DNA of 64,000 bases from Bolinopsis microptera (Eukaryota; Ctenophora; Tentaculata; Lobata; Bolinopsidae). The stretch is from positions 12,190,169-12,254,168 of the forward strand of contig NC_087072.1 in assembly GCF_026151205.1 (NCBI RefSeq), written 5' to 3'. The position numbers and the translations under genes are program-made. Below the pieces are notes generated by a model that was not told where the DNA came from, ran no database searches, and saw nothing but the letters and a program-made list of their open reading frames with translations. Position 1 is the first letter of the stretch, and every line of letters starts with the position of its first letter. Shown in pieces: positions 592 to 61,800 of this stretch.

Positions 592-1042
592 ATTCTTTAT
601 TTTTATTTCTGAATTCGCTCATTTTATTTGCTACTGCTAACTACCCATGGCGCCCCAGTTACTCACTGCGTTACTCACTGCGTACTGCACTTTATAGATT
701 TGGATTCTAGAGTACGTTATATTTTATCCCGGTAGTTGTACCACAATCCGCAATCCGCATTGGATATAGCACAATGTACAACAAATGTAAGAATGGACTT
801 GACGGTGAAGGGCACAGGGGTGGTGGTAGTGGTACTGCTACTTTCCTTACTGGGTGAATCTCATCCTGTCATTCCGCCGCATCTTCAATCAGTTTATGAA
901 CAGAAAAAGCCGGAGGTCCTCAGTTAATAGTAATACTTTCCGAAAACTAAAAGCGTGGACAGTGAATACTAGGGCGGATTTCAATTTCATGATACTCACG
1001 AATATGGACACGAGGGATGATGATTAATCTACACTCGACTAT
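592..1042. repeat. Duplicated segment D, left part
   Basis: Includes a ~125-bp block beginning AATTCGCTCATTT and ending ACCACAATCCGCA that recurs at 5093-5171, 6215-6340 and 10849-10970. The rest (from GGACTTGACGGTGAAGGGCA to the ACTCGACTAT junction) is nearly identical to 10253-10531. The retrotransposon at 1043 interrupts this segment. Confidence 0.85.
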
Positions 1043-4000
1043 TTATATCATAATCATATGTTTCTCTTCTATTCTCTCATCATGACTTACTTTCTCCCAA
1101 TTCTTCTCTCCACGACTAGGTCCATGAACACTGTACTCCCCCTAGATTATAATATTCATTCCTCTCTACTCCTTGACAGCCCACGTTATCTTATACCATT
1201 TCTTGCTTGCTCCCACATCAAACTTTTCTTTTTAATTATCTCCTCTTGGTTTATAAGAAATGTTCTTCTCCCTGGTAAGCTGAATAGAGCCAAGTATTCC
1301 AGCCGCCTCAGGCGTCTAGTCTCTTTATTCATTCTTTGGGTTTTCTCTCTTAACTTTCTTTTGATAACTCTTGTTAATCCTTCTATGCTTAATCCAGGTC
1401 CCAACTCCCTATCTGTACTCTACCAAAATGTCCAAGGTCTTATTCCTTTCAGTAACCTAAGCTCCTCCCATCCCCTTCTTGATGGTAATAAGATTTCCGA
1501 ACTTCAATCCTTTGCTAACATAGAGCAGCCTGACATAATTGCCCTAAATGAGACTTGGCTCAAAAATTCTATTTCTAGCAACGAAATCTTTCCTTCTTCT
1601 CAATATGAAATCTTCCGCAATGACCGCACGAGAAAGACTCATCCTCAAGATCCTAATAACCCTAAAAAGTTTAGGGAAAATGGAGGTGGTGTTCTTTTGG
1701 CTGTTCGGTCTGATCTCGATGCCACTACAACCCGACTACCAGTTAGCCTAGGTGCAGAAATGCTTGCCGTTAAAATTGCTTTTCCTAACAAAGAGAGTAT
1801 TGTAATCTGTACTTGTTATAGAGTTGGAACTCTTGGGTTACCTAATCATGATGTCATAGTTAGTTATATTCGCAAGCTAGTTTCCAAAAAGAATCCCCCT
1901 AAAATCTATGTTATTGGTGATTTTAATCTCCCCCACACAGACTGGCTATCTTCATCCAGTACCGTACCTATTGAGCAATCCTTCATAGATTCTTTCAGTG
2001 ATCTTTCTCTCTCCCAGTTGATCACATCACCCACCCATAAAAGTGGTAATACATTAGACATTCTTCTCAGCAATTATGATAACACAATCGATAACTTGAA
2101 TGTCTGTGATCCTCATTCTGTGTGCAAATCTGATCATTTTCCTGTCACTTTTTCAATTAAAAGCTCCTTTTCCCGCAAGAAAACTCCTAAACGTAAAATC
2201 TATAATTATAAGAAAGCAAACTGGGACATTATTAATCGTGAATTATGCTCGATTAATTGGCAAGTCCTAGAATGCCTAGATCCTGATTCGTCTTGGAAGT
2301 TAGTTAAAGACTGCATTATGAATTTAGTTGATATACATATTCCTAAAGTAACTATTAAATCAGAGTTTCAACCCCCGTGGTTCGATAGTGAACTTTTTTC
2401 TTCATGCCGTAAAAAAGATAGACTCAGAGCTAAATTTAAAATTTCTGGTTCTATTTCTGATGAGTTAAAGTTTGTTACTAGCCGTAAAGATTTTAAGAGG
2501 CTTTCATCAGCCAAAATAAGAGATAATCTTTTCAATAGTGATGATCCAGCGCTTATAACTAAGAAGTTTTGGTCACATGTTAAGTATAAATCTAACTCCT
2601 GCCGTATTCCTAATTGTGTTAGTTATTCTGGACAGCTTCGGTTCAAACCCAAAGCTCAAGCTGAACTTTTCAATTCTTTCTTTTATAACCAGTTTTCGGA
2701 TCCTTCACTTTATGACACTGACATCTCCTATGTCAATGATGTTGATTTTGATATTGACTTCGATCATCGGGATGTTCGTAAGCTTCTTTCAAATATTAAT
2801 TCAAATAAAGCCCAGGGACCAGATGGCATACACGGTAAAATTCTCAAAAATTGTTCCGTAGGTTTAGCTTACCCTCTAACATGCATTTTTCGTGGATCTT
2901 ACAACAGCGGCTACATTCCACAAGAATGGAAACTTGCAAATGTTGTCCCAATATTTAAGAAAGGTAAGAAAAGCGAGGTTGAAAACTATAGACCAATATC
3001 CCTTACTTGTTTAGTAATGAAAGTTTTTGAGCGCATTGTTAAACGTAAACTGCTTTCTTTGACAAGTACCCTTCTTGATCCCAGGCAGCATGGTTTTCTA
3101 GAGCACAAGTCATGCACAACCAATATGGTTGACTTTTGTGATAGCCTGGCATTGTCTCTTAACGAAAACATTATCAATCATGTTGTGTATTTTGATTTTG
3201 CTAAGGCATTTGATTCTGTAAATCATGATATCCTTCTTCATAAGCTAAAGACCTTATATAACATTGATGGCACACTTCTCAAATTTCTTACCAATTACCT
3301 TCAAGGCCGTTACCAAAGAGTGGTTATTGGTAATGAGATGTCATCTACCCTCTCAGTTAATTCTGGTGTCCCCCAGGGCTCTATTCTTGGTCCCTTACTT
3401 TTTGTATTGTTTATCAATGATATTCCTCTTGGCCTTTCGGATAATACTGATATTGTTTTGTATGCCGATGATACAAAAATCTGGCGTAAAATACATTCAT
3501 CTTCTGATAATACTAATTTACAAATGGATATAGACTATCTCTCTGACTGGGCACTAAGAAACAAAATGCGATTCCATCCAGCAAAATGTAAAGTGCTTAT
3601 TGTTTCAGGAAAACCATCTTTATCTCCTCCATTCGCATATAATCTTGATGGCTCTCCTCTTGTGTATGTAGAGTTAGAAAAAGATCTTGGAGTCGATGTT
3701 ACTCCTAAGCTAAGTTGGAATAGTCAGTGCGACAGAATTTATACTAAGGCCTGCCAACAACTTGGTATGGTCAGAAGAGATGGCCATATTGTCATTGGTC
3801 AGAAACGTCGCCGGGCGCTTTACCTCTCCTTGGTTCGTAGCCAATTCGAAAATTGTTCCATAATCTGGCGCCCTTGTAATAAATCACTTAGTGATAAATT
3901 AGAAAGTCTCCAAAAGAGAGCTATTAAATGGATTCTGTCTGAAGAGGGCCGCAGTTATCCACCTGAGCAATATGTCAAAAAGTGCAAGCTTGTCGATATT

Positions 4001-4780
4001 CTTCCTTTGTCTCAAAAGTTTGACTTGAATGATCTTATTTTTTTCCACAAAGTTCTTAACAATTTAATTCCTGTATCGCTGCCTCACTATCTCTCTTTAT
4101 ATCAGGGCACTTCTCGACTAAGACGTTGCCACCTCGACAGTATGTCTATTGTGTCATCAATTTTACCTAAGTTAAGTCAGAATTCACACACCACATGTAC
4201 CTCAAATAGCCCACTGGCAAAATCATTTTTCTACAGAACCCATATACTGTGGAATGGACTCCCTTTACAGGTAAGACAGATTGTTTCTACTAGTCTTTTC
4301 AAAGCTGAGGTCACTAAGCATCTATGGAAATGTTTATTGGATAGTGAAACAACAGTCTAGCCTAGTCTCTTTGCTCCCCATATTATTATTATTTTTGTTT
4401 TATTAATTTTTTTATCTACCTTCCTATACTTTCAACATCATATCACACTTCACCCGCACACCTTCTCACACATTAATGACCATTTCAGACCTGTATCTAA
4501 TGTATCTGGAATTTGACGTATTGAAATTCCAATTTTGACTCTATATCCACAGTTATTCACCATGGATTTGTTTGTTATTAAATAGTTTTTCATAAATTTT
4601 TGGATTTAGATTAATTCGATGTAATGGGTCCAAGTTACTGCGGACATAGTTCACTATGTGTTTACCGTGTTTGGGTGCCCATCATATTTTACAGATGGGG
4701 GCGATATTTTGAACGATTCTATTTTATATTCATCTATTGCTGTACTCTGTAAAATTTGAAAAGTATTTAATAAAAAAAAA
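1043..4780 (+). mobile_element. Full-length non-LTR retrotransposon (CR1/L2-like), poly(A)-tailed
   Basis: The element carries one long ORF, a ~420-nt 3' UTR and a terminal run of nine A. Its ends are defined by comparison with the uninterrupted duplicate at 10521-10540: the left flank ends ACTCGACTAT and the right flank starts TCACGTGACTT, which are continuous there. At most 1-2 bp could be a target-site duplication. The very short 5' leader (about 15 nt) suggests slight 5' truncation or an insertion that kept little leader. The intact frame suggests recent insertion. Confidence 0.85.
1058..4360 (+). CDS. Non-LTR retrotransposon polyprotein: endonuclease + reverse transcriptase
   Basis: 1100 residues, uninterrupted. 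Residues 1-110 are hydrophobic with several membrane-like stretches and end in an NPGP motif (about 112-115). An apurinic-type endonuclease follows, about 118-370: LYQNVQGL, DIIALNETWL, GGGVLLAVRS, IYVIGDFNLPHTDW and SDHFPVTF. The reverse transcriptase spans about 560-880: ANVVPIFKKG, NYRPISL, HGFLEHKSCTTN, YFDFAKAFDSVNHD, GVPQGSILGPLLF and the catalytic LYADDTK. A C-terminal tail follows. Layout and RT blocks fit the CR1/L2/Jockey group; I cannot separate these by eye. No separate ORF1 is present. The first Met is assumed; the M nine codons later would also serve. Confidence 0.93.
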   Translation: MFLFYSLIMTYFLPILLSTTRSMNTVLPLDYNIHSSLLLDSPRYLIPFLACSHIKLFFLIISSWFIRNVLLPGKLNRAKYSSRLRRLVSLFILWVFSLNFLLITLVNPSMLNPGPNSLSVLYQNVQGLIPFSNLSSSHPLLDGNKISELQSFANIEQPDIIALNETWLKNSISSNEIFPSSQYEIFRNDRTRKTHPQDPNNPKKFRENGGGVLLAVRSDLDATTTRLPVSLGAEMLAVKIAFPNKESIVICTCYRVGTLGLPNHDVIVSYIRKLVSKKNPPKIYVIGDFNLPHTDWLSSSSTVPIEQSFIDSFSDLSLSQLITSPTHKSGNTLDILLSNYDNTIDNLNVCDPHSVCKSDHFPVTFSIKSSFSRKKTPKRKIYNYKKANWDIINRELCSINWQVLECLDPDSSWKLVKDCIMNLVDIHIPKVTIKSEFQPPWFDSELFSSCRKKDRLRAKFKISGSISDELKFVTSRKDFKRLSSAKIRDNLFNSDDPALITKKFWSHVKYKSNSCRIPNCVSYSGQLRFKPKAQAELFNSFFYNQFSDPSLYDTDISYVNDVDFDIDFDHRDVRKLLSNINSNKAQGPDGIHGKILKNCSVGLAYPLTCIFRGSYNSGYIPQEWKLANVVPIFKKGKKSEVENYRPISLTCLVMKVFERIVKRKLLSLTSTLLDPRQHGFLEHKSCTTNMVDFCDSLALSLNENIINHVVYFDFAKAFDSVNHDILLHKLKTLYNIDGTLLKFLTNYLQGRYQRVVIGNEMSSTLSVNSGVPQGSILGPLLFVLFINDIPLGLSDNTDIVLYADDTKIWRKIHSSSDNTNLQMDIDYLSDWALRNKMRFHPAKCKVLIVSGKPSLSPPFAYNLDGSPLVYVELEKDLGVDVTPKLSWNSQCDRIYTKACQQLGMVRRDGHIVIGQKRRRALYLSLVRSQFENCSIIWRPCNKSLSDKLESLQKRAIKWILSEEGRSYPPEQYVKKCKLVDILPLSQKFDLNDLIFFHKVLNNLIPVSLPHYLSLYQGTSRLRRCHLDSMSIVSSILPKLSQNSHTTCTSNSPLAKSFFYRTHILWNGLPLQVRQIVSTSLFKAEVTKHLWKCLLDSETTV

Positions 4781-21416: not shown

Positions 21417-21517
21417 TTAACGGGTGATACTCGTAAAATATTTGTTCCAATTATTAGGACCGTCGACGAGTCCAACTCGGCGCGCGTCCTGGTAGTGGTA
21501 GGTTGTAAACCTACAAC
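21417..21517 (+). repeat. Structured repeat S, copy B
   Basis: Three hairpins in order: ACGGGT-GAT-ACTCGT; a long imperfect stem from GGACCG to CGCGTCC closed by CGAGT-CCA-ACTCG; and GTAGGTT-GT-AAACCTAC. Other copies are at 12685, 54635 (minus), 55139, 55290 and 59773. Confidence 0.8.
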
Positions 21518-21589
21518 TATTTACACACCGACTATGTCCATTATAAAACATATCGCAAAACGAGCAAACCACAGCGATGAAATTGAAAC

Positions 21590-22475
21590 AAACACTGACA
21601 TCGAAACGAACATACGCATACTCAAGAAAATTAGCCTGCTCAACTCTGAAAAAGTGCACCTTCACTTTCTGAAATGGTCCCTAGGAGTCAATCGGAAAGC
21701 CACTAATGCGGGCGACTGGGGTGACTCAGGGCGCTATACATTGATTTACGAATGCATCAATCTCACCCTTATTATATTAAGTATACTCAACGTCTGCATA
21801 ATCTTAGTGACGGCTCATTAGTTATATTAAAATCGATCAAAACGTATTTCAAAGAGCAAAGAGTTTTGGAACTTGTACATTAACTCTTCTCAGAAACTAG
21901 ATTTCTACCGCAATCTAAAATCAAGCTTTGGGAAAGATTGTTACCTAGATCACGTGATTAGGTATAACGACAGGGTAAATACCACCAGACTCCGCATAAA
22001 TGCACACCGACTGGAGGTTGAATTAGGTAGATATTCTAATTCTATTCATATAACAAGACTCCTCTGGCTCTATTCATATAACAAGACTCCTCGTGAATTT
22101 CGAATATGCACATGGTGCAACGCCAACATTATCTTTAGCGCTCATATTGTCGAAAATGAAGAACATCTCTTTAAGTTTAACCATTGTGATATTAAGTTTA
22201 ACGCTGTCGCTAGACGGAACATCCTAAATAAGATTAAAATGGTGGCATCGAAGTCGAGCGACAGCACCCCAAACTCAACCAATAACACCATATTTCCTTA
22301 TAGTGATATAAACCTAGTCAAGCTCATCTTCGATCATAATGATTTCTTTACATCACTGACTTACGAGTGCCAGATACATCTTTCGAGGATTGTCGCCAGG
22401 TATATCACCAAATGTTTCAACAACCGTAAAAAGTTCTTGGAGTCAATAAACGTCGATTCTTGCCGTAACACGTAA
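21590..22475 (+). pseudogene. 3' fragment of a non-LTR retrotransposon ORF
   Basis: The first frame (to about 21775) reads KVHLHFLKWSLGVNRKATNA and GDSGRYTLIYECI. After a frameshift and a stop, the 200-codon frame from 21873 reads KLDFYRNLKSSFGKD, TTRLRINAHRLEVELGRY and PREFRICTWC. This order (HxxFxKWxLGV, GxxGRYPL, LRxxxHxLxIExGRY, then a CxxC knuckle) is typical of the region after the RT in many invertebrate non-LTR elements. An internal tandem duplication (TATTCATATAACAAGACTCC twice, 22041-22095) disrupts the knuckle. No RT domain is present here, so it is a dead fragment. Confidence 0.72.
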
Positions 22476-23670: not shown

Positions 23671-24078
23671 ATGATGAAAACATCGTTTATCTCAGTCTTG
23701 ATTGTGGTCTGCCTTGCAGCGCAAGTAGATACGGCACCTGTGGATCGGAGACAAGTATATACTAGTAGTACTACTAGTAGTTCTTCTTCTCCCGGAAAAA
23801 GACTAGCTATTGAAGAACGAGCTACTTCTTCTTCTACTTCTAGTTCTTCTTCTTCTCCCGGAAAAAGACTAGCTATTGAAGAACGAGCTACTTCTACTTC
23901 TACTTCTAGTACTTCTTCTCCCGGAAAAAGACTAGCTATTGAAGAACGAGCTACTTCTACTTCTACTTCTAGTACTTCTTCTCCCGGAAAAAGACTAGCT
24001 ATTGAAGAACGAGCTACTTCTTCTTCTACTTCTAGTTCTTCTTCTTCTCCCGGAAAAAGACTAGCTATTAAAGAATGA
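23671..24078 (+). CDS. Secreted repeat protein; candidate amidated-peptide precursor
   Basis: 135 residues. Residues 1-22 form a clear signal peptide (KTSFISVLIVVCLAAQVDTA). The rest is a Ser/Thr-rich repeat of 21-22 residues, each unit reading LAIEERATS...SSPGKR. Every unit ends in Gly-Lys-Arg, the usual processing and C-terminal amidation signal of neuropeptide precursors. After the first DRR a Gln begins the first unit (QVYTSST...SSPGKR), which would give a pyroglutamyl, Pro-amide peptide. The frame stops at TGA 24076, but the array continues (see 24079-25011). A mucin-like secreted protein is the main alternative. ATTTATCAG just before the ATG could be a 3' splice site. Confidence 0.6.
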   Translation: MMKTSFISVLIVVCLAAQVDTAPVDRRQVYTSSTTSSSSSPGKRLAIEERATSSSTSSSSSSPGKRLAIEERATSTSTSSTSSPGKRLAIEERATSTSTSSTSSPGKRLAIEERATSSSTSSSSSSPGKRLAIKE

Positions 24079-25011
24079 GCTACTTCTTCTTTTACTTCTA
24101 GTACTTCTTCTCCCGGAAAAAGACTAGCTATTGAAGAACGAGCTACTTCTTCTTTTACTTCTAGTACTTCTTCTCCCGGAAAAAGACTAGCTATTGAAGA
24201 ACGAGCTACTTCTTCTTCTACTTCTAGTACTTCTTCTTCTCCCGGAAAAAGACTAGCTATTAAAGAATGAGCTACTTCTTCTTTTACTTCTAGTACTTCT
24301 TCTCCCGGAAAAAGACTAGCTATTGAAGAACGAGCTACTTCTTCTTCTACTTCTAGTACTTCTTCTCCCGGAAAAAGACTAGCTATTGAAGAACGAGCTA
24401 CTTCTTCTTCTACTTATAGTTCTTCTTCTCCCGGAAAAAGACTAGCTATTGAAGAACGAGCTACTTCTTCTTTTACTTCTAGTTCTTCTTCTCCCGGAAA
24501 AAGACTAGCTATTGAAGAACGAGCTACTTCTTCTTTTACTTCTAGTTCTTCTTCTCCCGGAAAAAGACTAGCTATTGAAGAACGAGCTACTTCTTCTTTT
24601 ACTTATAGTTCTTCTTCTCCCGGAAAAAGACTAGCTATTGAAGAACGAGCTACTTCTTCTTTTACTTCTAGTTCTTCTTCTCCCGGAAAAAGACTAGCTA
24701 TTGAAGAACGAGCTACTTCTTCTTCTACTTATAGTTCTTCTTCTCCCGGAAAAAGACTAGCTATTGAAGAACGAGCTACTTCTTCTTTTACTTCTAGTTC
24801 TTCTTCTCCCGGAAAAAGACTAGTTATTAAAGAATGAGCTACTTCTTCTTTTACTTCTAGTACTTCTTCTCCTTGAAAAAGACTAGCTATTGAAGAACGA
24901 GATATAACTTTTTCTACTTATAGTTCTTCTTCTCCTTGAAAAAGACTAGCTATTGAAGAACGAGATATAACTTTTTCTACTACTTCTTCTTCTACTACTT
25001 CTTCTTCTTAT
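24079..25011 (+). repeat. Continuation of the 63-bp coding-type array with in-frame stops
   Basis: About 14 more units in the same frame as 23671-24078, with no frameshift. Stops arise at three ATTAAAGAATGA units (the first ends the ORF at 24078; others near 24270 and 24837) and at two CCTTGA variants of CCCGGA (24874, about 24937). The last units diverge to GATATAACTTTTTCTAC and TTCTTCTACTAC runs. Confidence 0.85.
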
Positions 25012-30701: not shown

Positions 30702-33700
30702 TTGAAACTGTGCTATTTGTTTGGTTTTGCAATGATTAAATCAGCAGTTTTACTTTTACTGGTGGGTGGTATCTGTTCTCTGAGCCATGAAACTGTTAAA
30801 GTGAGGATCAGCCAACATGCTGTGGACTACAGTACGTTAGTAGTAGTATTGTGTGTTAGTACACAGTGTGTTAGTACAGTACGTGTATACTTACACGTGG
30901 CATTGATACTGTGCTCTGATTGGCTAATCACTGTCCCATGTCAGAGCCTACGTGCTCCAATCTCCAACGTCCCTTCAAAATACACTTAATACACCATGAA
31001 ATGAATAATTTCTACAATAAATTACCGAACAAGAATTGTGAGAATTGTTTTTAAAAGTTGAAATTATCAGTTAACGAGGAGATAAGAAACGTTATCCCCA
31101 CCATCGAGGCAGAACTACAGAACTTCCCTTTACCTCAGCTGTCAGGACAGGATTACAGACTGTACAAGTTCGTCTAACTTTATTAAGGGTTGCAGTGTGG
31201 GTTATAGATATAGCTGACATATCAGTTTTTCATTATATTTTTAAATTTTATGCCATGATCACTAATAGGTGTCTTCACGCTTTAAGACATGAGGTAAACA
31301 AAACATGCCAGAAGTCTCAAAATCACACATTACAATTGTTTTGAGCCGTCTGACTGAATAAGCAGATAAAGAGCTTTAAATTAAATAATAAAATGTAAGA
31401 GGTACTAAGTGACGTACTTAGAGCCAGGTAAGTCTAAGGTTGAAACTGACAAATTCGGGTTTGAATGTTATACGTTTTAGTTTTCAGTTTTCAAACTATC
31501 CTTACCGTTACACCTTCTTATAAGAATCCAACATTTTCAGTTTGAAGCTCCAATCCTCAAAGATCGGAAGTTCCACCATTAAGTTCCAGGACAACGGGCT
31601 GAGGATTAAAATACAGAACAATCACTTCGTTCTCGGAGGAAACTTCTGGATCCAGAAAATGTTACAAGATTTCAGAATTTTACGTTTCATTACACCTGCT
31701 GTGTCGTTAGTCGCAGTAAAACCTAGCTAGAGAATACTGCGGGTCATTGGTCAATGAGATTACTAATATTTATATAGCACACCCCCAGTCCCCACTACTA
31801 GCGCCCCTAATACATCTAACAGCACACTCCCTGATACGAATACATCTTTTTAGTTTTAAAAACTAAGTAAACCTACGTATTTCAGAATTGGAATCCAGGG
31901 CAATGTAAAGATCAGTGCAGCCAATTTCAATGTCGACACAACCATCGATTACAGTTAGTACTTTCTGAGGAACTTAAAAAGTAAGGTTTCACGTGGTTGT
32001 GGGTTTAACATTATCCTAAAACATGCGTATATTGGTGGTCCTACTGTAATACATATTATCCATTACAGACTATAACAACAGAAACAACCGCTTGTCCCTC
32101 AAAGATTGTAGGATTAACATTGGAAGACTGGATATCGACCTCTACAAGTCAGTACATTAAAGAAGCAGTTTAACAATTAAATTAACTGCTACATCTGACA
32201 TTTTATCTGACTGATCTTGCCAAAAAGTACAGGAAACCACAAATTCCCATCGACTAATATTGTTACGAATTTCAGTCCTTTCCTGAATTTCATTCTGAAT
32301 GTGCTCGGAGGAGCGATTCGTGACCAAGCAAGCAATATGATCTGCAATGCTGTGAAGAACAGTGCAATACCCGCAGTCAACAAAGCTTTTTCTAATCTCC
32401 CAGGTTTCCGCGCAATTGTCCAGTTCAACTTCGTATTATCAATTCTAATACTATAATTTACATTTGCACACCACTGCTTCGTGCTCATTGATTGAATTGA
32501 AAAAGATCCCAATTCCGAAGAGCTTATTTCTCAGATGATTACGATATCGGAAGCGTGGCTAAAATCAAGTTTACACCTGGCGAAGGAAGCGTTACCGCGA
32601 CCCAACTCGTCTCATCCTACTTTGTAAGTAGTTTAAGTGTTTAAGCAAGTTATTGTTAAACAGATTACAAATTCTGACTGAAGTATTGAACAAGCAGAGC
32701 TAGGTAACCTCCCAGTTTAATTTAATTTGAACAGACCCTCTGATTAGGCAGCAGTGCAGCCAGTGACTGGTACAGTAGACTGGAAGTTCAAAGAGCAGGC
32801 CCTCCCCTCTGGTGGGTACACGGGACAGTGTTGCTTCTGGGCTTCCGAGTTCCTCCTCAACACCGCTCTCGGCACTCTCATGCCTCCTGGCAAAATCCAG
32901 ACTACACTCGACGCTGCTCAAATGGTAACCACCTCTTTTATTTCAGTTAAATTTGGTTAGCATTTAACAACTTGAATAGACTCTGTCTGAGTTGCGCGCA
33001 GAAACAGACACTGTCTGTTTACTTAGCGACAGTTGCTAAGCCACCTGCATTCTAAAACAGTTGGTCTCCAAGACGTCTGGAGTCTGACATGTTATCTCCA
33101 CCGCAGGGAGGGTTACCCGCAGCTCTGGAGGTTAAGATAGCGAACAGTGCTGCTCCGGTAGTGTCTCTGAACCCGGAGAAAGTGTACATCTCCACGGCAG
33201 TGAACGTCACCGTGTACGGAGAGGAGGAGGGGAGTAGGATCAACTTGGGGAGGTACTCCACAGATTTCCACCTCCACAGTGACACCAACATCTCTTACGA
33301 GAGTCTCAGGGATCTTGTTAAACAGCAGATCAACTACCAGCTACCCGTGTTTGAGAAACGAGGTGACAGTTCGAGATGGCTAGATAATAAATAATTAAAA
33401 AGCATGAAATGTCTATTACATAAGAAAAATGCACGATAGTTCAAAATTCGAGCCAACATTCAACAGTTTTTACTAACTGACTAAATAAAAATACCAGTTA
33501 GCGATTAAAATAAAGGTATCTTACTCCTTCTATCACAACATTAAACCACAGAAGCGTGTATTGATAACGACAGCAACTGTGCCTGGTGGGCAGGTCAGGG
33601 GGAATGTAAAGCTAACCCTAACTACATGTTGGCAAACTGCAAGAAATCCTGTAAAGTCTGCACTGACGACAATTCAAGTTTGTCATTTCTCTTGATATAC

Positions 33701-34715
33701 GTATCGTGTGGGGTATGGATCATGAAACAGCGTTATGTGATTTCTAAACTTAGTTTTAAGGACCTCGTGGTTAGGTTGGAGGTTAAAACTGGACTATAAA
33801 CTAATTGTAGTTTCTTCCCTGTCTCTCTTTCTCCACACCTACCATCCGTTGTCACGCGAACAAATATTATGATGTCGACTGCAGATAAAAATCAAACATG
33901 ATCCTTAAAGAAAAACCGACAATATGGCGCTGCCCCGTTATTCAGAATATAGACGTGACTTACACTGAGCAAGTCATGTTTTTTATCATGATACAGATTA
34001 ACCAATCAGCTTATAGTCTAAGAATCTGTGTTATGTGTAAAACAAACTTGTGCTACCTCCCACTGTCACCACATAATCTCATAACCTTGTTTCAGTGAAA
34101 AAAGAGAAGTCCCCAGTCGAGTATCTTCTGAACGACGTGCTGCCCTCCAGCGAATATGTACAGTTCTATGATGCACATTCGGACATGCTTCAAGTGAGAA
34201 TATAGTTTCAAATAGTTACCAAATAGTTAGGTACCAAATAGATACCAACCAGTTGCCAAACAATTCCCAAACAGTTACAATCAGTTACCAAACAGTTACC
34301 AACCAGTTACCAAACAGTTACCAAACAGTCATTAACCAGTTGCCAAACTGTCATTAAACAGTTACCAAACAGCTTCCAAAAAGTCCGAAATTTCGTCTTA
34401 TTATCTTCTGCTAAAATATCTAGATGGTGCACCTATAAACTGCTCACCTATACGACTTTTTGTAGCTTTTGTTTCACTTTCCAGTTTGACGATCTAATCA
34501 GTCAATTAGGCGATATAAATAGTGGCAGCTGTTTTACCTGTTAAGTTCAACATTGTTCTAAAAGTGCAAGGTCAGTGAAATGTTTTGAATAAATTGTGAT
34601 GCGTAATCCTTAACAGGGAGCCTCTAGAACGTGTGGAAAGTTCCGACCTACGCAGAAGACACGCCAAATGATACACGACAAGATAAGAAATCTCCTCCGA
34701 TCTCAGAGAGCATGA
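30702..34715 (+). CDS. BPI/LBP-fold secreted protein with C-terminal ShKT domain
   Basis: Twelve exons with consistent phase: 30702-30831, 31071-31167, 31541-31660, 31886-31953, 32069-32147, 32276-32403, 32535-32623, 32748-32924, 33107-33362, 33552-33677, 34096-34193, 34617-34715; 488 residues. The signal peptide is MIKSAVLLLLVGGICSLS from Met11, the likely true start. The N-terminal BPI half reads AVDYINEEIRNVIPTIEAEL, FPLPQLSGQDYRLY, then LSLKDCRI and NMICNAVKN, whose Cys pair matches the family's conserved disulfide. The second half (TGTVDWKFKEQALPSG...YISTAVNVTVYG) is shorter than a usual C-terminal barrel. Exon 10 is a six-Cys ShKT module (CIDNDSNCAWW...CKKSCKVC). A basic 70-residue tail ends in LLRSQRA. 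BPI-fold proteins bind lipid or lipopolysaccharide, so a secreted defence or lipid-transfer role is inferred. Reading through the donor at 33362 would give a short form ending at TAA about 33394 without ShKT. Confidence 0.82.
34209..34385. repeat. ~11-bp intronic tandem repeat
   Basis: CCAAACAGTTA/CCAACCAGTTA units begin about 15 nt after the donor of BPI-ShKT exon 11. Confidence 0.85.
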
Positions 34716-38901: not shown

Positions 38902-40632
38902 GTACAGTTCGCACGGTACTTTTGCAAATTCCCACATATTGACCCTAAGGTACAGTTCGCACGGTACTTTTGCAAGTTCCGTCATATTGACCCTAAGGTA
39001 CAGTTCGCACGGTACTTTTGCAAGTTCCCACATATTGACCCTAAGGTACAGTTCGCACGGTACTTTTGCAAGTTCTCTCATATTGACCCTAAGGTACAGT
39101 TCGCACGGTACTTTTGCAAATTCCCTCATATTGACCCTAAGATACAGTTCGCACGGTACTTTTGCAAATTCCCACATATTGACCCTAAGGTACAGTTCGC
39201 ACGGTACTTTTGCAAATTCCCTCATATTGACCCTAAGGTACAGTTCGCACGGTACTTTTGCAAGTTCCCTCATATTGACCCTAAGGTACAATTCGCACGG
39301 TACTTTTGCAAGTTCCCTCATATTGACCCTAAGGTACAGTTTGCACGGTACTTTTGCAGGTTCCCTCATAGTGACCCTAAGGTACAGTTCGCACGGTACT
39401 TTTGCAGGTTCCGTCATATTGACCCTAAGGTACAGTTTGCACGGTACTTTTGCAGGTTCCCTCATATTGACCCTAAGGTACAGTTCGCACGGTACTTTTG
39501 CAGGTTCCGTCATATTGATCCTAAGATACAGTTCGCACGGTACTTTTGCAAGTTCCCTCATATTGACGCTAAGGTACAGTTCGCACGGTACTTTTGCAGG
39601 TTCCCTCATATTGACCTAAGGTACAGTTCGCACGGTACTTTTGCAAGTTCCCTCATATTGACCCTAAGATACAGTTCGCACGGTACTTTTGCAAGTTCCC
39701 TCATATTGACCCTAAGGTACAGTTCGCACGGTACTTTTACAAGTTCCCTCATATTGACCCTAAGGTACAGATCGCACGGTACTTTTGCAAGTTCCCTCAT
39801 ATTGACCCTAAGGTACAGTTCGCACGGTCCTTTTGCAGGTTCCCTCATATTGACCATAAGGTACAGTTCGCACGGTATTTTTGCAAATTCCCTCATATTG
39901 ACGCTAAGGTACAGTTCGCACGGTACTTTTGCAAGTTCTCTCATATTGACCCTAAGGTACAGTTCGCACGGTACTTTTGCAGGTTCCCTCATATTGACCC
40001 TAAGGTACAGTTCGCACGGTCCTTTTGCAGGTTCCCTCATATTGACCCTAAGGTACAGTTCGCACGGTACTTTTACAAGTTCCCTCATATTGACCCTAAG
40101 GTACAGATCGCACGGTACTTTTGCAAGTTCCCTCATATTGACCCTAAGGTACAGTTCGCACGGTCCTTTTGCAGGTTCCCTCATATTGACCATAAGGTAC
40201 AGTTCGCACGGTATTTTTGCAAATTCCCTCATATTGACGCTAAGGTACAGTTCGCACGGTACTTTTGCAAGTTCTCTCATATTGACCCTAAGGTACAGTT
40301 CGCACGGTACTTTTGCAGGTTCCCTCATATTGACCCTAAGGTACAGTTCGCACGGTCCTTTTGCAGGTTCCCTCATATTGACCATAAGGTACAGTTCGCA
40401 CAGTATTTTTGCAAATTCCCTCATATTGACCCTAATTAGGTACAGTTCGCACGGTACTTTTGCAAGTTCTCTCATATTGACCCTAAGGTACAGTTCGCAC
40501 GGTACTTTTGCAAGTTCCCTCATATTGACCCTAAGGTACAGTTCGCGCGGTACTTTTGCAAGTTCTCTCATATTGACCCTAAGGTACAGTTCGCACGGTA
40601 CTTTTGCAAGTTCCCTCATATTGACCCTAAGG
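38902..40632. repeat. 48-bp minisatellite, ~36 units, with higher-order structure
   Basis: The unit runs GTACAGTTCGCACGGTACTT, then TTGCAAGTTCCCTCATATTG, then ACCCTAAG. As 48 is a multiple of 3, several frames stay open on both strands (for example 38854-40683), which is not evidence of coding. One unit lost a base at about 39617 and one gained TTA at about 40437. Units at 39719-40390 form two copies of a seven-unit, 336-bp higher-order repeat. Confidence 0.97.
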
Positions 40633-43546
40633 CAACACCTTTTAAAGCTCCCTTCGTGTATCAATTTTACTGGTACGTTGTAGCTTTCCCGTTTATACTA
40701 TTGTTAATTTCGTAGGATTGAGCACATTTTCTTAGGATTGAGCACACTTTCTATTTTATTAGAAGTGAAATAATATCGTTATGTTTATTGTTTAGGAAAT
40801 CAAACTCAGACTGATCGACTGTTTTGGAAAATTACTTCTCGCCTACTTTTAAACTTCGTCTTTTGTTTGATTATGCAGATATCAACGTTAATCCAGGCTC
40901 TTTATTCAATAAGTAGGACATGTACACTATCATAACTAAAATACACTCAATTATTAAAGACTATGAAGCTATATGAGGCTGATGTAGTTACTTTTTGTTT
41001 AAACTTGATTTGTTTTGTGAAGGAGTGGATCTACTCCGACTCCAGAAATTAAATGGCTTTTTTAATGCTTAAAAAGCAATTTACAAGAGTCTATTATGCA
41101 TCATCGCGATTGTATTTGTGATTCAAAGGGCGATGTTTTAAAGTCTAAATAGATTTCAAAAAAGTCTAAAAATGATCCGGAAGAGCTCGGACAGTGTCTA
41201 AAATTTGAAACCTGCTCATTTCCTTTTCTGTGTAGAGTCTGGAGGTTTATAATTAACTAAAAATTGGAAAAAACATTAGTACAAGGTAAAGTTTTGAAAG
41301 TTGCGAGGTCTGCATTTTTAGTTTCACACAGTCGCGAGTGGGCCGGGGGGGCCGTGGGTGGGCCGGGGGCACATACGTGGGGGGGGGGGGGGGGCACATA
41401 CGAAGCTAAAACTTGGTAGTGGTATCTTATCGGCTCACATTTTTTGAACATGATACATTGCCTTCCATTTTCCGGCCATAGCTCTTTCAATATTTGAGAA
41501 TCCTGCAAAAATTTGCAAAATGCAGATTTTTAGCAACTAGCTAATCCAAGACAAATTAAGAACCGGAAAAAATTAAATTCCTGACTTCTCTTATGCTTGG
41601 TGACAATATCATGAACTTGGGCATCAAACGATTTTGACCAAATTAAAGTTCAGCTTCATTATGTCAAATTCGTTCTATACTAAGTTTTAGCTGAAATTTT
41701 GGATAGAAATAGCTGAAATTTTAGATAGGCAAAATTATTCCATCCCTTAACGGCAAACCTACTTAATATAGCATACAAGGTAGTTTGCAAACCTACTTAA
41801 TATAGCATACAAGGTAGTTTGCAAACCTACTTAATATACCATACAAGGTAGTTTGAATTTAGGTTCAAAATGTTCTGTCAAGCTGCTATGATAATAATTA
41901 ATTTATAAAGATAATTATGCTAATGTAGGTACTAGGTACATGCATATTGTTTCAGAAAAATACCTTCAGCAAGGAAGTATATTCAATATAACTGAAAGTT
42001 GAAGAGAATTATATGAAGGACAATTAGATATCATTATTTATCATCAACATAACATGAGCATATGCGGCTCCCTATTTTTACATAGTATTATATCTAATTG
42101 ATATTATCCTAACTTTAGCGCTGCATCATGGTCATATATGGACTAGCTGTCGTGTATTTTCCTTCTAAGGCTGGTAACTACCGGCTGCAAGGCTGCAATT
42201 AGGCTTTCCATCTCGTAAAACGGGGCCGGTTAATTACTGGTTTAGTCAAATGAAAAATTGAAAGAAATTTATCTCCAGGATCGATTCCCTTTTCTACATG
42301 AATGTGATTTCTTGGATTTGGTGTACAAAGTGTTCATTACTGTTATTACTGAAAGCATAATTTCCGTTATTCCCTGCTACTTTATTTTATCAGATGAACA
42401 AGTTATTTTAATCTACTGAATACTTGAGATTTCAATTACATCTCAGTTCGTGCAATTAGGAAACTAATTAGTATTCCGCACAGCTGGCATCTTTTTCAAT
42501 AAATTGTACTAAAATTAAGCTCACTCAGTTTTTATTGATTTTATTAAATCTTTTTTCCGGCGAACTTTTTAACCTGTTTTATAAATTTGTTTCATCCTCG
42601 TATTTATACCCCGCAATCTTAAATTTCCCAAACTACTTCAAACCTTCTGTACCAAAGAAAAAGTATTGCCTTGTTCAGAATAATAATTAATTCGCTGTCT
42701 TGGACAGAATAATAATTAACTTGCTGCTTGACTGCCTAATTATCTGATTAAAACTTGCATTTTCTTACCAATACAATGTTCATTGATACAAACAGCCCAA
42801 TATATCGGCACTCTTTTCGTTACGTTCACTTCTGCTAACTGTCATTACGAATTTGTAATTTTTTGCTATTTTTGCAACCACAAGCGTGGTTTTGTTCCCT
42901 TTATTGATTTAGACTGCACACAATAGCATTATAACTGATATCGAGTATTATATTATGTATAAGTATTATATTATATAACGAGAAAGCAGCAACTAAAACT
43001 AACCATTACCCTCTACTTAGCGATATTCTGGCTGGACCAAAGACCTCACCCCATTAACCATCCTCAAATCTCCTCCCTTCCTCTTTCCCACCTGTTTACT
43101 CCGCAAGACTCCGCAGCCCTGGTTGTAGCCCGTAGCAACACGTGCGCGCTGAGGCATTGTGCCGCCGCCGCCGTGCCAGACGTCCTCGAGCCTGACCACA
43201 ACCCCTCCATGTTCCATGTTAGTTTAACAAGGGTAGTGGGTAAACGGGGGCGGGAATTCGGTCTAAAACTGGACATATATATTTGAGCTGTAGACGTATA
43301 TCTCATGCACTTGTTGGAGACATCAATTAGGGACGTCTGCGTAAACAGGGGATCACGTTGATGGAATTATAAAGTAGGGATCTTTAGTGTCTTAGACAGA
43401 ACAGGACCTTCAAAAAGACAAAATTTGACAGCTGTCTAGTCGGCACGTCACATTTAGCCGGATTCTTAAAAAACAAGATTTCGGACCAGTTGCAGTCCTT
43501 AACAAAAGTGTGTTTTTTTTTCCTCTAAAAATGCATTATTTTTCAG
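40633..43546. other. Non-coding upstream of CBFB
   Basis: A G-rich stretch (41338-41394, including a run of about 17 G) and three 34-bp units (41753-41854, ACTTAATATAGCATACAAGG). The acceptor at 43546 shows that an upstream CBFB exon exists, but I could not identify it. Confidence 0.5.
41753..41854. repeat. 34-bp repeat, three units
   Basis: GCAAACCTACTTAATATAGC then ATACAAGGTAGTTT, three times in tandem. Confidence 0.93.
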
Positions 43547-43564
43547 CTGCTGCACTATGGATTG

Positions 43565-45822
43565 ATGCCACGAGTTGTTCAGGATCAGTCCCACAAGTTT
43601 GAAACAGACGAATTGTTTAGAAAACTGAGCGAGGACACGGAGGTATGTTCAGGATCCATCAAGTTTATACCAAAAAAAAATACTCTAGATATTATAGAAG
43701 GAGTTTTCTTGTCAAATTAGTAAGGATAAGATAACCATTAACCTTACTAAAGTACTAAGACTGCAATCTATAAGTATAGAAGACTTTATTGACTGTACCT
43801 TTCCTCAGATAAGAGTGACGTCGTATCGGGACAAGTCTCCGGAGGAACGGTCACAGCGGTTCATCAACGACGTAAAAGAAGGGCATACTTGTGTGGTAAG
43901 TTCTCTCCAAATTAACGGGGTGGGGGACGGGGAGGGGTGTGTATAGCTAGAAACTTATCCCATCATATTGACGGGGTGGGGGACGGGGAGGGGTGTGTAG
44001 CTAGAAACTTATCCCATCATATTGTTCACATTTCAATTCAAAGAACCTGTGATCAGTAAATATGGAAGTTTTCTTAGCGTTTGGTGTGAAATTTTCTCTA
44101 ACCATCAAGTCTGAAATATTATGACCTTGAAAATTCTGCACATGGGGAGGCTAAGACTTGGAAAAAATTGTATACATTTTTACATTTGCCAGCCTCCATA
44201 ATTTGAAATGGGAGAGTTAACTACGTTCATAACTATTAACTATAGTAGTATTATAGTATTGTGTCAGTGTGTATAGTGGTATCATGTGTAAAACATGTCG
44301 CCCAACTTGTCAAACTTGTTTAACATAGAAGTTAATTCAACACTTAATTCACAGGCGTTTCTTAACACCGGAGTAAACCTAATGCTGCAGTTTTACCCTC
44401 CATCGGGTCCCACAGACAAAGTCACCAAGGAATATGTAGACTTCGACAAGGATCCCTCAAAGGTGAGATTGTAAGCTTGATACAAAACAGGGTTTAGGCG
44501 GCTTTTAAAAAGTAGAGATCTTGCGACAGTGGAGACTATGACTGTGTGTCCCAAAAAAGACAGCGTCTATCTTATATCTATCTTTAGCAGTTAGCGCATG
44601 TAAATTACGTCACAGTTGAGTGAATCCCATGTTTAAACAATAAACCCCCTTTCAGGTGGTCCTCAAAAGTCGGTTTATAATGAACGGAGTTTGTGTACAA
44701 ATGAAGGGTTGGATCGACCTGAAGCGTCTGGATGGAGTAGCTCGGTTAGAATTCGACTACGATTTAGCGGATGTGAGTTTTCAGCACTTACATATAAACT
44801 TTTTCAACAGTTGAAATTAACAGTTGCAAGTTACATATAAACCTTTTCAACAGTTGAAATTAGCAGTTGCAACTTACATATAGACCGAAATTAGCAGTTG
44901 CAACTTACACTTAAACCCTTTCAACAGTTGAAATTAGCAGTTGCAAGTTACATATAAACCTTTTCAACAGTTGAAATTAGCAGTTGCAACTTACATATAG
45001 ACCGAAATTAGCAGTTGCAACTTACATATAAACCCTTTCAACAGTTGAAATTAGCAGTTGCAACTTACATATAAACCCTTTCAACAGTTGAAATTAGCAG
45101 TTGCAACTTACATATAAACCCTTTCAACAGTTGAAATTAGCAGTTGCAACTTACATATAAACCCTTTCAGCAGTTGAAATTAGCAGTTGCAACTTACATA
45201 TAAACCCTTTCAACAGTTGAAATTAGCAGTTGCAACTTACATATAAACCCTTTCAGCAGTTGAAATTAGCAGTTGCAACTTACATATAAACCCTTTCAAC
45301 AGTTGAAATTAGCAACCTGGAGGTGTGTATTATAGGAGAAGTGGGTACAAATGGAAGTGGAGAAACTGTGTCAACTTAAATTTAGTATATTTCAGCAAGA
45401 AGACAGAGTAGTGAGAACCAGACTTAGAGAATACGAAGAGAGACAGATGAAAAACGAGTTCTCAATCGCAGTGAGTCTCTTTTACTGGACTTGTATTCCT
45501 CGTTAACCTAATCATTGAGCAGCATTTCTTTAAAATCAATTTGATGGATCTTTTTATGGTTCGTTGTATCACCAGTTTCTAATATGGACGATGAAGACAA
45601 CAAGATAGTATCTGTATTCTGTTGACATCGGTTATCCCAGGTTACTATTAAAAAGTTAATAGCAACTATTGTTATCCCCATCTGAGTGATGTGATTCTAA
45701 CCTTATCTCAGTAATATCTCTAGGGATCCCAGCTGATGCCAATACAAAGCAACCAGCTCTCCTCAAGCACGGGCCCTGAGGGGTCCAGGATCCACCACGC
45801 CCACAGATACCACCCTTACTAG
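43565..45822 (+). CDS. CBFB: Core-binding factor beta subunit
   Basis: Six coding exons, all in phase 0: 43565-43642 (the exon itself begins at the acceptor 43546/43547), 43809-43895, 44355-44462, 44656-44772, 45396-45470, 45724-45822; 187 residues, the size of known CBFB. Diagnostic stretches are MPRVVQDQSHKFETDELFRK, YRDKSPEERSQRF, FLNTGVNLMLQFYPP, FIMNGVCVQMKGWIDLKRLD and a charged RTRLREYEERQ helix. CBFB lacks DNA contacts of its own; it binds Runt-domain factors, raises their DNA affinity and acts in the nucleus. The tail after the helix (MPIQSNQLSSSTGPEGSRIH) is Ser/His-rich and lineage-specific. The start is the ATG aligned with the family N-terminus. A tiny upstream ATGGATTGA in another frame lies in the same exon. 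Confidence 0.95.
43914..44035. repeat. ~60-bp tandem duplication in CBFB intron 2
   Basis: ACGGGGTGGGGGACGGGGAG followed by GCTAGAAACTTATCCCATCA, twice, starting about 18 nt after the donor at 43896. Confidence 0.9.
44783..45312. repeat. 43-bp minisatellite in CBFB intron 4
   Basis: About 12 units of CTTACATATAAACCCTTTCA, ACAGTTGAAATTAGCAGTTG, CAA. Two shorter units share the same internal deletion (CATATAGACCGAAATTAGC). It begins 10 nt after the donor at 44773. Every unit contains CCCTTTCAACAG, which resembles a 3' splice site. Confidence 0.95.
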
Positions 45823-54859: not shown

Positions 54860-55085
54860 GACTTCGCCGCTTCGACGCGCCGCGCGAACTAGTTCACCTA
54901 ACCATGTGCTTTCGCGCCACTTCGGGCGCGCTTGTTTCACCACCGTGAGGCGGGCGCGCGCTACTGCAAGCGCAAGGGCTCTGGATAGAGCAACGAACTA
55001 GCATTCTTGCTTTGCATCGTTGATGCGCACGAGGGCCACGATACAACTTAGTGAAACGACAATGGGGGTCACGACGTGATGCAAA
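54860..55085. repeat. GC-rich dispersed repeat shared with 18900-19015
   Basis: CGATGGGGGTCACGACG/CAATGGGGGTCACGACG and TTTAGTGAA-CGA stretches are shared. It also contains CGCGCCACTTCGGGCGCG, and GGGCTCTGG-TAGAGCAAC shared with 11419. Confidence 0.5.
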
Positions 55086-55138
55086 GAAGTCCGGCTTCAA
55101 ATTTATCACAGCTTTGTTCAATCCCACCTCAATTTTTT

Positions 55139-55227
55139 TAACGGGTGATACTCGTAAAATATTTGTTCCATATATACCGTCGACGAGTCCAACTCGGCGC
55201 GCGTCCTGGTAGGTTGTAAACCTACAA
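55139..55227 (+). repeat. Structured repeat S, copy C
   Basis: Complete: ACGGGTGATACTCGTAAAAT, CGACGAGTCCAACTCGGCGC, TAGGTTGTAAACCTACAA. Confidence 0.82.
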
Positions 55228-55289
55228 TAATTTTTGTTCCCTTGTTCATTGTTTTATGTTTGGGTTTCGCAGCCAAGTGATGTCTAACG

Positions 55290-55386
55290 TTAACGGGTGA
55301 TACTCGTAAAATATCTGTTCCATAATATACAGGACCATCGACGAGTCCAACTCGGTGCGCGTCCTGGTAAGTTGTAAACCTAAAAT
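55290..55386 (+). repeat. Structured repeat S, copy D
   Basis: Complete: the middle stem GGACCATCGACGAGT pairs with ACTCGGTGCGCGTCC. Changes relative to copy B keep the stem (a G-C becomes G-T). Confidence 0.82.
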
Positions 55387-55859
55387 GTCTAACGGTAATG
55401 GGTAAGTGCCGTTTAATTTTGTACGTGATACCCATGTATCTTAATTTATAACATTTGGTTGGGATTGATATTTTTGATGCGGTAAGACGGATGTTACTCC
55501 TCTAAATTTCTTCAAAGTAGCGCGCGCCGCTTTCTTCTCGATGGCAAGTGCTACGAAGTAGCGCGCCGGGCCAGACCATGAGCAATGGCAATAAATGATA
55601 AAAGGTATCCAATAGGGAATTCGAATATTTATAACTTATAACGTTGTCGTCATTGTCAAATAAAATCCATATTTTTTACAGTACAGAGCTAAAAGTAAAT
55701 GGTGAAGAGGCCTGGGGTGACATGTGATCCGGAGGAATGTTACCAAAACTTGGGGGGTAAAATCTAATAATAGCCAAATTAGCAGCCTGGGTACAGTTGG
55801 TAAAATTAGGTATCACTACCGCCCAGCCTGTCGTGGTGGAATGTGGTGGAATGTGGTGC

Positions 55860-56132
<273 letters not shown>

Positions 56133-59131: not shown

Positions 59132-59875
59132 TATTTTATTTATTTTTCAAAACATTCCAGTACATTGTGCAGAAAGTTGGAGATTAAAAAATTTGGAAGC
59201 ATGTAGGGATTTAGACCTGATATCGATCGCATATAGTAAAATTACTCTAGCACAATTGTAACTGCAGTTTTACAGAAGTCAGAACTTTAAATGCTTAATG
59301 AACACACTTGCAGGTACCACCCGTAATCGTATTCACACTCAGACTTGAGTTTTGTCATTTTCCGATACGAGATTGGGGATGGGTTCTATAAACAAACAAA
59401 CAACAAACAAACAAATGGTGAAGAGATTAGAGAAATTTAAACATAAATTATAAATGATTTTTAACATTTCCTCGAACAAAACTTTCGACTAGCGGGTTTC
59501 TAGTAATATATAATAAAAAGCCAAATATAAAAGCCAAAAATAAGAGCTAAAAATAAAAGCCAAAAAATAAGAACCACAATGAAGAGCCGTAAATGCAGAG
59601 TTGGGGTACAAATTGTCAAAAATTACTCACAAAACATATCACTCAAACTGTTATATGCACACCTCATCCCCTAAATAAGGAGTTGAAATATTAATTCTTA
59701 GATTAGATAACATCCAAATACGATTGAAAGGTACTTCTCATTATTTAGAACAGTTTCGTACGACGTAATAATTTAACGGGTGATACTGTTCCTGTCTTAC
59801 TCCTTACAACAAAACAGCTCCAGGAGGCTTCACTTAATAATACCATCTTTAACAAACCCCCACTTCTAACGTTTT
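59132..59875. other. Spacer and 3' region of the 492-residue gene
   Basis: AAATAAAAGCCAAAAATAAGAGC-type repeats (59515-59575) and a fragment of repeat S (ACGGGTGATACTGTTCC, 59773). No gene was seen. Confidence 0.5.
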
Positions 59876-61354
59876 TTAGTACATTTTCACAAAATAGATG
59901 CTATTACCATCAATCGTCATATTTCGGCCACGCCCCCCGCCAGCCCCTTGGTTTAACTTTGCTGCAACATCTCCTGAAATGGATACGTACCAGCCATGCT
60001 GGGCCGCGACCGCCATCATCTTGCCTAATACAGCTCTCATGTGATAACAAACAGCACCCTTGGAATGCCAAACCCCAAACCAGGGCAATCCACGAACATT
60101 TATTTCTAGGTTCGAGTCTGGTAAATTTACCTCGTTTTGAACACGGAACGAGTAGAACTGGTAGAGACAATCTCTCATTGGGGCACCAACATCAATGGAA
60201 AAATCAAGTAGCTGAAGCCCATTCAAGCTGGTCAATGACAAGCAAGCATATTTGCAGTTGACTGGGTATGGATTTCTCCGGAAGAGAATAGAGGCTTTAT
60301 CAGTCTGGCTATAGCCTATGTCAATTGCGTAAAGAGGAGTATATCCATTTTGCCCAAAAACTTCCATAATCCGCGAAATACATCTTCGTGCAGCAATAGC
60401 TTCACTATTCTTAGAAACCCAAGGGTTTCCATGTACCTTGATCTCATGGCTTCCGTAGTAATCCCGTTTTTCTTGGATAGAAAGACCAGCAGCAGTAATA
60501 GCCGTCTCCAAAGGCTCAAGGAGGTGGTCGCAGTTGATCAACCTAAACTTGTCCTTTTCAGACAGGGTCAGCATGCAGAAATCATTTGGATGAGCAGTAA
60601 AAGTTGGATCGTATATAAAGAAGAAGGAGTCAGCAACCCCTCTTAAATTAGTTGAAGTGATAAGTCTCCAGTTTAGTCCACTCATCCTACCCACTATATT
60701 GCAAATTGCTTTTCGAGTATTTATTCCGTCCTCGTGAGTCGAACCCCAGGAGCCCTTCAAAGTAATCTCATGCAGGGTTTCACCTAAAACCATAGTGTCC
60801 CTACTTTTAGACACACCCTTAAGCCAAGAATCGCCGAGAGCTAGCATAACTGCTTGTTTTATATGCTCATCATGCCGCAGAAGGACAAGCTGTTTAAGCT
60901 TAGTAGGGTCGGGACCTCCACCTGTAACAGGAGAAATACAGCAAACTCTAAATAGGCCTCTGTTTACATCAGGTATTGCGCCCTTTGCAAAGAACCATGT
61001 AGCCATGTTCAATTGTCTTGCTAAATCACTACTTGTAATCAGGATGTAGCCTAAATTGTACATTTCCTCTAGGAGGCGTGTGGTGAAGAACTTTCCGAGG
61101 GTGTAACCCCTTTTGCCACCATTCTGAAGTGCAAAAGTAAACTTATCCCCAACATGCATCTTTACAGTACCATAGTAATCTATGAGACGTCCTCGAGTGG
61201 ATCCATATTTAGCCTCTATTTCCTGATCAAGTATGACAAGCATTTCTCTCACTTCTGGTGTCACATTCATGACCCTTATCTTTGAGTCGTATACTATCGA
61301 GATTGCAATATAGGAATCAGGGATTGCTTTCACAGATAATGTGGATTCTGCCAT
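59876..61354 (-). CDS. Uncharacterised protein with four tandem divergent modules
   Basis: 492 residues in one exon. An acceptor-like CTTTTAG eight bases before the ATG suggests an untranslated upstream exon. Each ~115-residue module runs: paired strands (15-32, 135-160, 258-275, 368-386; e.g. DFCMLTLSEKDKFRLINC), a helix, an EI-x-hydrophobic-x-G-x-x-W strand (HEITLKGSWG 195, HEIKVHGNPW 303, LEINVRGLPW 416; VKMHVGDKF 64 in module 1), a helix, a Gly-aromatic strand (LGYILITSSDL 101, LNWRLITSTNL 227, NGYTPLYAIDI 336, HGWYVSISGDV 453) and a final aromatic strand (TWFFAKG 119, SFFFIYDP 243, SILFRRNP 355, SIYFVKMY 485). There is no signal peptide, membrane segment or evident catalytic motif. I do not recognise the family; a binding or scaffold role would be a guess. 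The unbroken frame and the balanced divergence of the modules argue for a real, selected gene. Confidence 0.85.
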   Translation of the reverse strand: MAESTLSVKAIPDSYIAISIVYDSKIRVMNVTPEVREMLVILDQEIEAKYGSTRGRLIDYYGTVKMHVGDKFTFALQNGGKRGYTLGKFFTTRLLEEMYNLGYILITSSDLARQLNMATWFFAKGAIPDVNRGLFRVCCISPVTGGGPDPTKLKQLVLLRHDEHIKQAVMLALGDSWLKGVSKSRDTMVLGETLHEITLKGSWGSTHEDGINTRKAICNIVGRMSGLNWRLITSTNLRGVADSFFFIYDPTFTAHPNDFCMLTLSEKDKFRLINCDHLLEPLETAITAAGLSIQEKRDYYGSHEIKVHGNPWVSKNSEAIAARRCISRIMEVFGQNGYTPLYAIDIGYSQTDKASILFRRNPYPVNCKYACLSLTSLNGLQLLDFSIDVGAPMRDCLYQFYSFRVQNEVNLPDSNLEINVRGLPWFGVWHSKGAVCYHMRAVLGKMMAVAAQHGWYVSISGDVAAKLNQGAGGGRGRNMTIDGNSIYFVKMY

Positions 61355-61800
61355 ATTGTAACCTAAAAGTAAGAATTTATTTTATTTTTGCACAGTTATG
61401 ACATATGTTTTTTCATAACTCAAGTCAAACATAAATATACTAGTTGCTTACTTTGAACTTTTCTAAAAGCCTGTAATATTATCTTAGTTGTACCAAAACT
61501 AGAAAAACGGAGTACTGTCTTTAACGGAAAGGAGTCGGTAAGATTTACAAATAAAAATGTTGAAGCCATCAACATACAGATTAGACCAAACATCCCCACT
61601 AAAATTTCCTATTTAATTGTTCTATTCTTACTCCTGACAACAAAATAGCTTAAAGAAGCTTCAGAAAACTATCAAATCTTTCTATGAAGTTGCTACACTA
61701 GACTGAGTTTAAGGAATAATAAGCCTTGGTATTGCGAGGAAAGTATTGTATTGTATTTACATGATAATAATATTACCATATTTTAATTTATATCTTCAGG
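61355..61800. other. Upstream region of the 492-residue gene
   Basis: Non-coding; likely holds its 5' untranslated exon and promoter (minus strand). No clear TATA box was seen. Confidence 0.4.

Follow-up and report, generated by a model that had tools for sequence, protein, structure and literature searches.

Diverged tandem-domain proteins that lack a Pfam model are common among the 'dark' genes of animals. The closest systems are, we presume, unnamed proteins of several modules that are predicted from fungi, choanoflagellates and invertebrates; their modules would be about equally long and would each show three features: the strand E-[IF]-K-[LV]-x-G-x-P-W, a Gly-Trp pair and the strand D-[ST]-L-F-F. 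Because such Pfam-less proteins are common, a four-module protein encoded in the window (the whole 64,000-nucleotide stretch of DNA that was analyzed) is in itself unsurprising. Its third module fits this pattern best. A consensus of the pattern was 40% identical to module 3, but it was drawn up after module 3 had been read, and this identity counts as no evidence. Used as a Pfam query, the consensus gave a single sub-threshold match to DUF4387 (E 0.19, 12.9 bits vs. a cut-off of 27), and it led to no locus in scans of viral or prokaryotic contigs.

The open frame has the position and length given in the earlier note, and a putative intron precedes it:

59876..61354, minus strand: 492-codon open frame from ATG to TAA, with a product of 55 kDa and pI 8.8
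61363..61451, minus strand: putative 89-base 5' leader intron (donor AAA/GTAAGC, acceptor TTCTTACTTTTAG) by consensus reading only

At the stop-triplet frequency of the minus strand of the window (0.064), 501 codons should contain about 32 stops by chance, and the chance of such an uninterrupted frame at any one place is about 3e-15. We conclude that 59876-61354 is a real gene. The frame had been described as a single coding exon, and for the coding part this is likely to be correct. However, the strong acceptor-like TTCTTACTTTTAG ends just 8 bases before the ATG and therefore probably marks an upstream exon. The donor-like GTAAGC begins at 61451; alternative splice-site candidates in the leader include a second donor at 61631 and further CAG/TAG triplets. 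In the 575 bases downstream of the stop codon, none of seven polyadenylation hexamers looked for was found.

The chain divides into four modules (M1 to M4):

60956..61312, minus strand: module 1, residues 15-133 (119 residues), without the EI..G..W motif
60584..60955, minus strand: module 2, residues 134-257 (124 residues), motif EITLKGSW
60254..60583, minus strand: module 3, residues 258-367 (110 residues), motif EIKVHGNPW, most like the other three
59876..60253, minus strand: module 4, residues 368-492 plus the stop codon (125 residues), motif EINVRGLPW

Identity to module 3 is 21% for module 4, 19% for module 2 and 21% for module 1. The six global pair scores sum to 157, a value reached by none of 1000 module shuffles (mean -31, sd 27; z 6.9), and the sum falls to -23.5 once one partner of each pair is reversed. 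Three of the six pairs are significant alone (M1-M3, z 4.95; M3-M4, 4.69; M2-M3, 3.60), and the remaining ones are unconvincing by themselves (M2-M4, 1.83; M1-M2, 1.53; M1-M4, 0.79). By local score, just two of the six, M2-M3 and M3-M4, stand out; that of M1-M3 was equalled or beaten in 39 of 500 shuffles. When each module was compared with a profile made from the other three, shuffles scored at least as high as the real module 1, 10, 9 and 4 times in 2000 for M1, M2, M3 and M4, respectively (scores were reported for 1427 to 1666 of the 2000 shuffles and not for the rest). Ungapped 21-residue diagonals did not exceed shuffled ones (best 30; mean 27 and maximum 37 over 60 shuffles), and the repetition is therefore visible only with gaps.

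The copies are also in register. Each module was set against stretches of 118 residues from the rest of the chain, spaced four residues apart (67, 43, 46 and 65 of them for M1, M2, M3 and M4, respectively), and the top windows begin no more than 9 residues from module starts. M1, M2 and M4 all match M3 best (start 258; windows 249-257), and M3 matches M1 best (start 15; windows 13-17), followed by M4 (start 368; windows 361-369). The margin for M3 is modest, with a best score of 44.5 vs. a median of 23.75 over its 46 windows and out-of-register windows that score fairly high too; the medians for the other modules are 3.5 to 4.0. The modules thus are more alike than shuffles and lie in register, as in a tandem-repeat domain protein. 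The tandem quadruplication that had been claimed is borne out by summed pair scores, leave-one-out profiles and in-register windows, all beyond chance. As judged from sequence comparison, the repetition is real and old, and it is clearest through module 3.

An EI-x-h-x-G-x-x-W motif had been ascribed to every module, but the exact form occurs in two of the four (M3 and M4); M2 has a version shortened by one residue, and the motif is missing from M1. Two exact copies are meaningful, since chance alone would give about 0.0005 in a chain with this composition. The Gly-aromatic strand motif fared better: written as [G/N]-[Y/W]-x6-[D/N]-[L/I/V], a pattern composed after the modules had been inspected, it has a single occurrence in every module (residues 102, 228, 337 and 454) and none in the rest of the chain. 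The pair itself is GY in M1 and M3, GW in M4 and NW in M2, so that the glycine is kept in three of four. Module 1 had been called decayed; this applies to its missing EI..G..W motif but not to the module as such, because M1-M3 is the top of the six global pairs. Module 4 carries a Gly-rich insert, GAGGGRGR, ahead of its last strand. An alignment of all four modules has only two invariant columns, one R and one A, a soft count given the uncertainty of a four-sequence alignment at about 20% identity.

The absence of a recognised family, also claimed earlier, was upheld in the libraries searched. Neither the full chain nor any of the four modules matched Pfam-A at the curated gathering cut-off. 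Below it, the full chain gave only TPR_25 (E 0.25), and of the single modules M3 alone matched (TPR_25, E 0.03; Acyl-CoA_dh_1, E 0.24); the best score, to TPR_25, was 14.8 bits vs. a cut-off of 27. Full-chain searches of NCBIfam and PHROGs returned no family in either at E up to 10. Matches to PDB sequences were at chance level, with one for the full chain (E 1.4) and three for the module profile (E 0.8, 1.3 and 1.5). The best sub-threshold matches, which include TPR_25, Acyl-CoA_dh_1, adenylate kinase and ribosomal proteins, are short, inconsistent between modules and at or near chance. No strong similarity to any known domain or transposon protein, which would have spoken against the note, was found in these libraries.

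Viral contigs yielded no relative in scans with the whole protein, the consensus described above or the module alignment (1, 19 and 32 pattern stretches, respectively, none confirmed), nor did prokaryotic genome contigs in two scans (14 and 32 pattern stretches, none confirmed). Searches of plasmids and phages with tblastn gave no relative either. In the viral contigs, a pair of DNA patterns for the motif picked out 4 and 13 loci; after six-frame translation, the best of these 17 had E 0.42 with the module profile and 0.36 with the protein, both at the chance level. Scans of both contig collections were seeded by short exact or degenerate peptide words, which reach close relatives only. They show that a near viral or prokaryotic relative is absent from the collections as far as such words can tell; since the collections cover viruses, prokaryotes, plasmids and phages and are not intended for eukaryotic genomes, orphan status does not follow. 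Within the window, tblastn found no second copy up to E 1, and the best match of the module profile to another open frame had E 0.52. Among the papers listed in literature searches, none concerned this protein, as judged by title and the opening of the abstract.

Chou-Fasman propensities averaged over the modules, a weak method, predict strand, strand and helix where the module begins and another strand following the Gly-aromatic pair; they hardly predict the EI strand and give a mixture of strand and helix for the second helix. No run of 19 residues averages more than 1.05 in Kyte-Doolittle hydropathy, which makes a membrane span unlikely, and with a mean of 0.43 over the first 30 residues a signal peptide is not evident.

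Our preferred reading, to which we give a probability of roughly 0.45, is that this genuine coding gene, probably of an animal, specifies a soluble protein that serves in binding or as a scaffold, is not an enzyme, and consists of four tandem, diverged alpha/beta domains from a family outside the Pfam models. One alpha/beta domain would have been copied by internal duplication to give four tandem copies that diverged strongly, each running through a strand hairpin, a helix, the EI-x-h-x-G strand, a second helix, the Gly-aromatic strand and a short strand. The product would be soluble and intracellular, and its four domains may pack pseudo-symmetrically, their differing surfaces holding a protein or nucleic-acid partner without enzymatic activity. 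No shared catalytic set is visible, because only the R and A columns are invariant, as expected for a fold kept for structure and binding. Such a count of invariant columns would miss catalytic residues that lie in a single module or at an interface, and binding is here the default reading.

Quite possibly, the modules belong to a fold or superfamily that is already known, such as the ferredoxin-like or longin-like alpha/beta folds, but as members so distant that they lie beyond the reach of sequence profiles, so that they would be new by sequence only. With modules about 20% identical among themselves, a profile scan could easily miss a superfamily, and the partial strand-helix pattern suits several common small alpha/beta folds; yet none of the sub-threshold matches in Pfam or the PDB is shared between modules, and the best ones are weak and in disagreement. 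That the modules represent an undescribed, possibly widespread eukaryotic domain with its own fold, arranged as a four-copy pseudo-symmetric assembly whose copies have different binding roles, we consider unlikely. Improbable, too, is a four-repeat enzyme in which one or two modules are active and the others structural. The modules do differ in what they retain, M1 being without EI..G..W and M4 having the GAGGGRGR insert, but no enzyme family was matched at a curated cut-off and no polar set is conserved across the modules.

The least probable alternative is that the gene is not one of the host but was picked up by, or travels with, a transposon or virus. The window is rich in repeats and has a non-LTR retrotransposon frame, and the gene is bracketed by a direct repeat:

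1028-4357, plus strand: non-LTR retrotransposon open frame, 1110 codons uninterrupted, with endonuclease and reverse transcriptase domains
59787..59850, minus strand: 64-base direct repeat, copy 1, 25 bases below the stop codon
61618..61681, minus strand: 64-base direct repeat, copy 2, 263 bases above the ATG

The copies of the direct repeat match with E 7.5e-7, the next best match of the stretch having E 0.29. However, they are only 73% identical, and usual target-site duplications are far shorter than 64 bases. Against such an origin also stand the lack of a match in PHROGs, phages and viral contigs (the viral scan reaching close relatives only), the lack of a transposon family in Pfam, and the apparent presence of the putative leader intron. 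The 64-base repeat may represent the tail end of an upstream tandem paralogue that was lost, or a dispersed element; tblastn and the module profile detected no coding remnant of a tandem array upstream of the gene within the window.

Overall, the observation in the earlier note holds in large part, and is thus partly confirmed, and the interpretation placed on it is partly supported. The gene is real, as is its diverged fourfold repeat, and the searched libraries contain no family for it; for now, the case is of moderate interest. If the domain is widespread or its fold new, a four-module profile would aid the annotation of other unnamed proteins, and the module boundaries defined here make the profile test simple.

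The window was screened against Pfam (E up to 0.01) with 150 of the 219 frames that passed filtering, out of 258 open frames of at least 55 codons. Six families were matched: CBF_beta (two frames), ShK and, more weakly, STATa_Ig (E 0.001), SDP_N (0.0027), GREB1_C (0.0055) and zf-DNL (0.0078). The stronger matches are:

33545-33796, plus strand: ShK domain (Pfam E 8.1e-8)
43529-43717, plus strand: CBF_beta piece, profile positions 1-27 (Pfam)
43698-43943, plus strand: CBF_beta piece, profile positions 25-55 (Pfam)

The two CBF_beta pieces, with Pfam E values of 3e-9 and 3e-6, adjoin at 43529-43943 like successive exons of a core binding factor beta gene, and the ShK domain is perhaps from a secreted protein. 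CBF-beta and ShK are features of animals, and together with the non-LTR retrotransposon they suggest that the window comes from an animal genome. Simple repeats occur at several places:

5-173: 28 tandem copies of the hexamer AACCTC, right where the window begins
23771-24993: 63-base minisatellite in about 19 copies (126- and 189-base periods were reported as well), with open frames on both strands
38902-40632: 48-base minisatellite in 36 copies (93% matches); both strands have long open frames
55863-56130: TC dinucleotide run, 134 copies, 100% matches

Related peptides, FTTYHYQDARRVGLVDG, FTTYQDARRVGLVDG and FTTYQDAHRVGLVDG, are encoded in the open frames 21420-21680, 54897-55253 and 55121-55501 (minus strand), which probably belong to a dispersed repeat.
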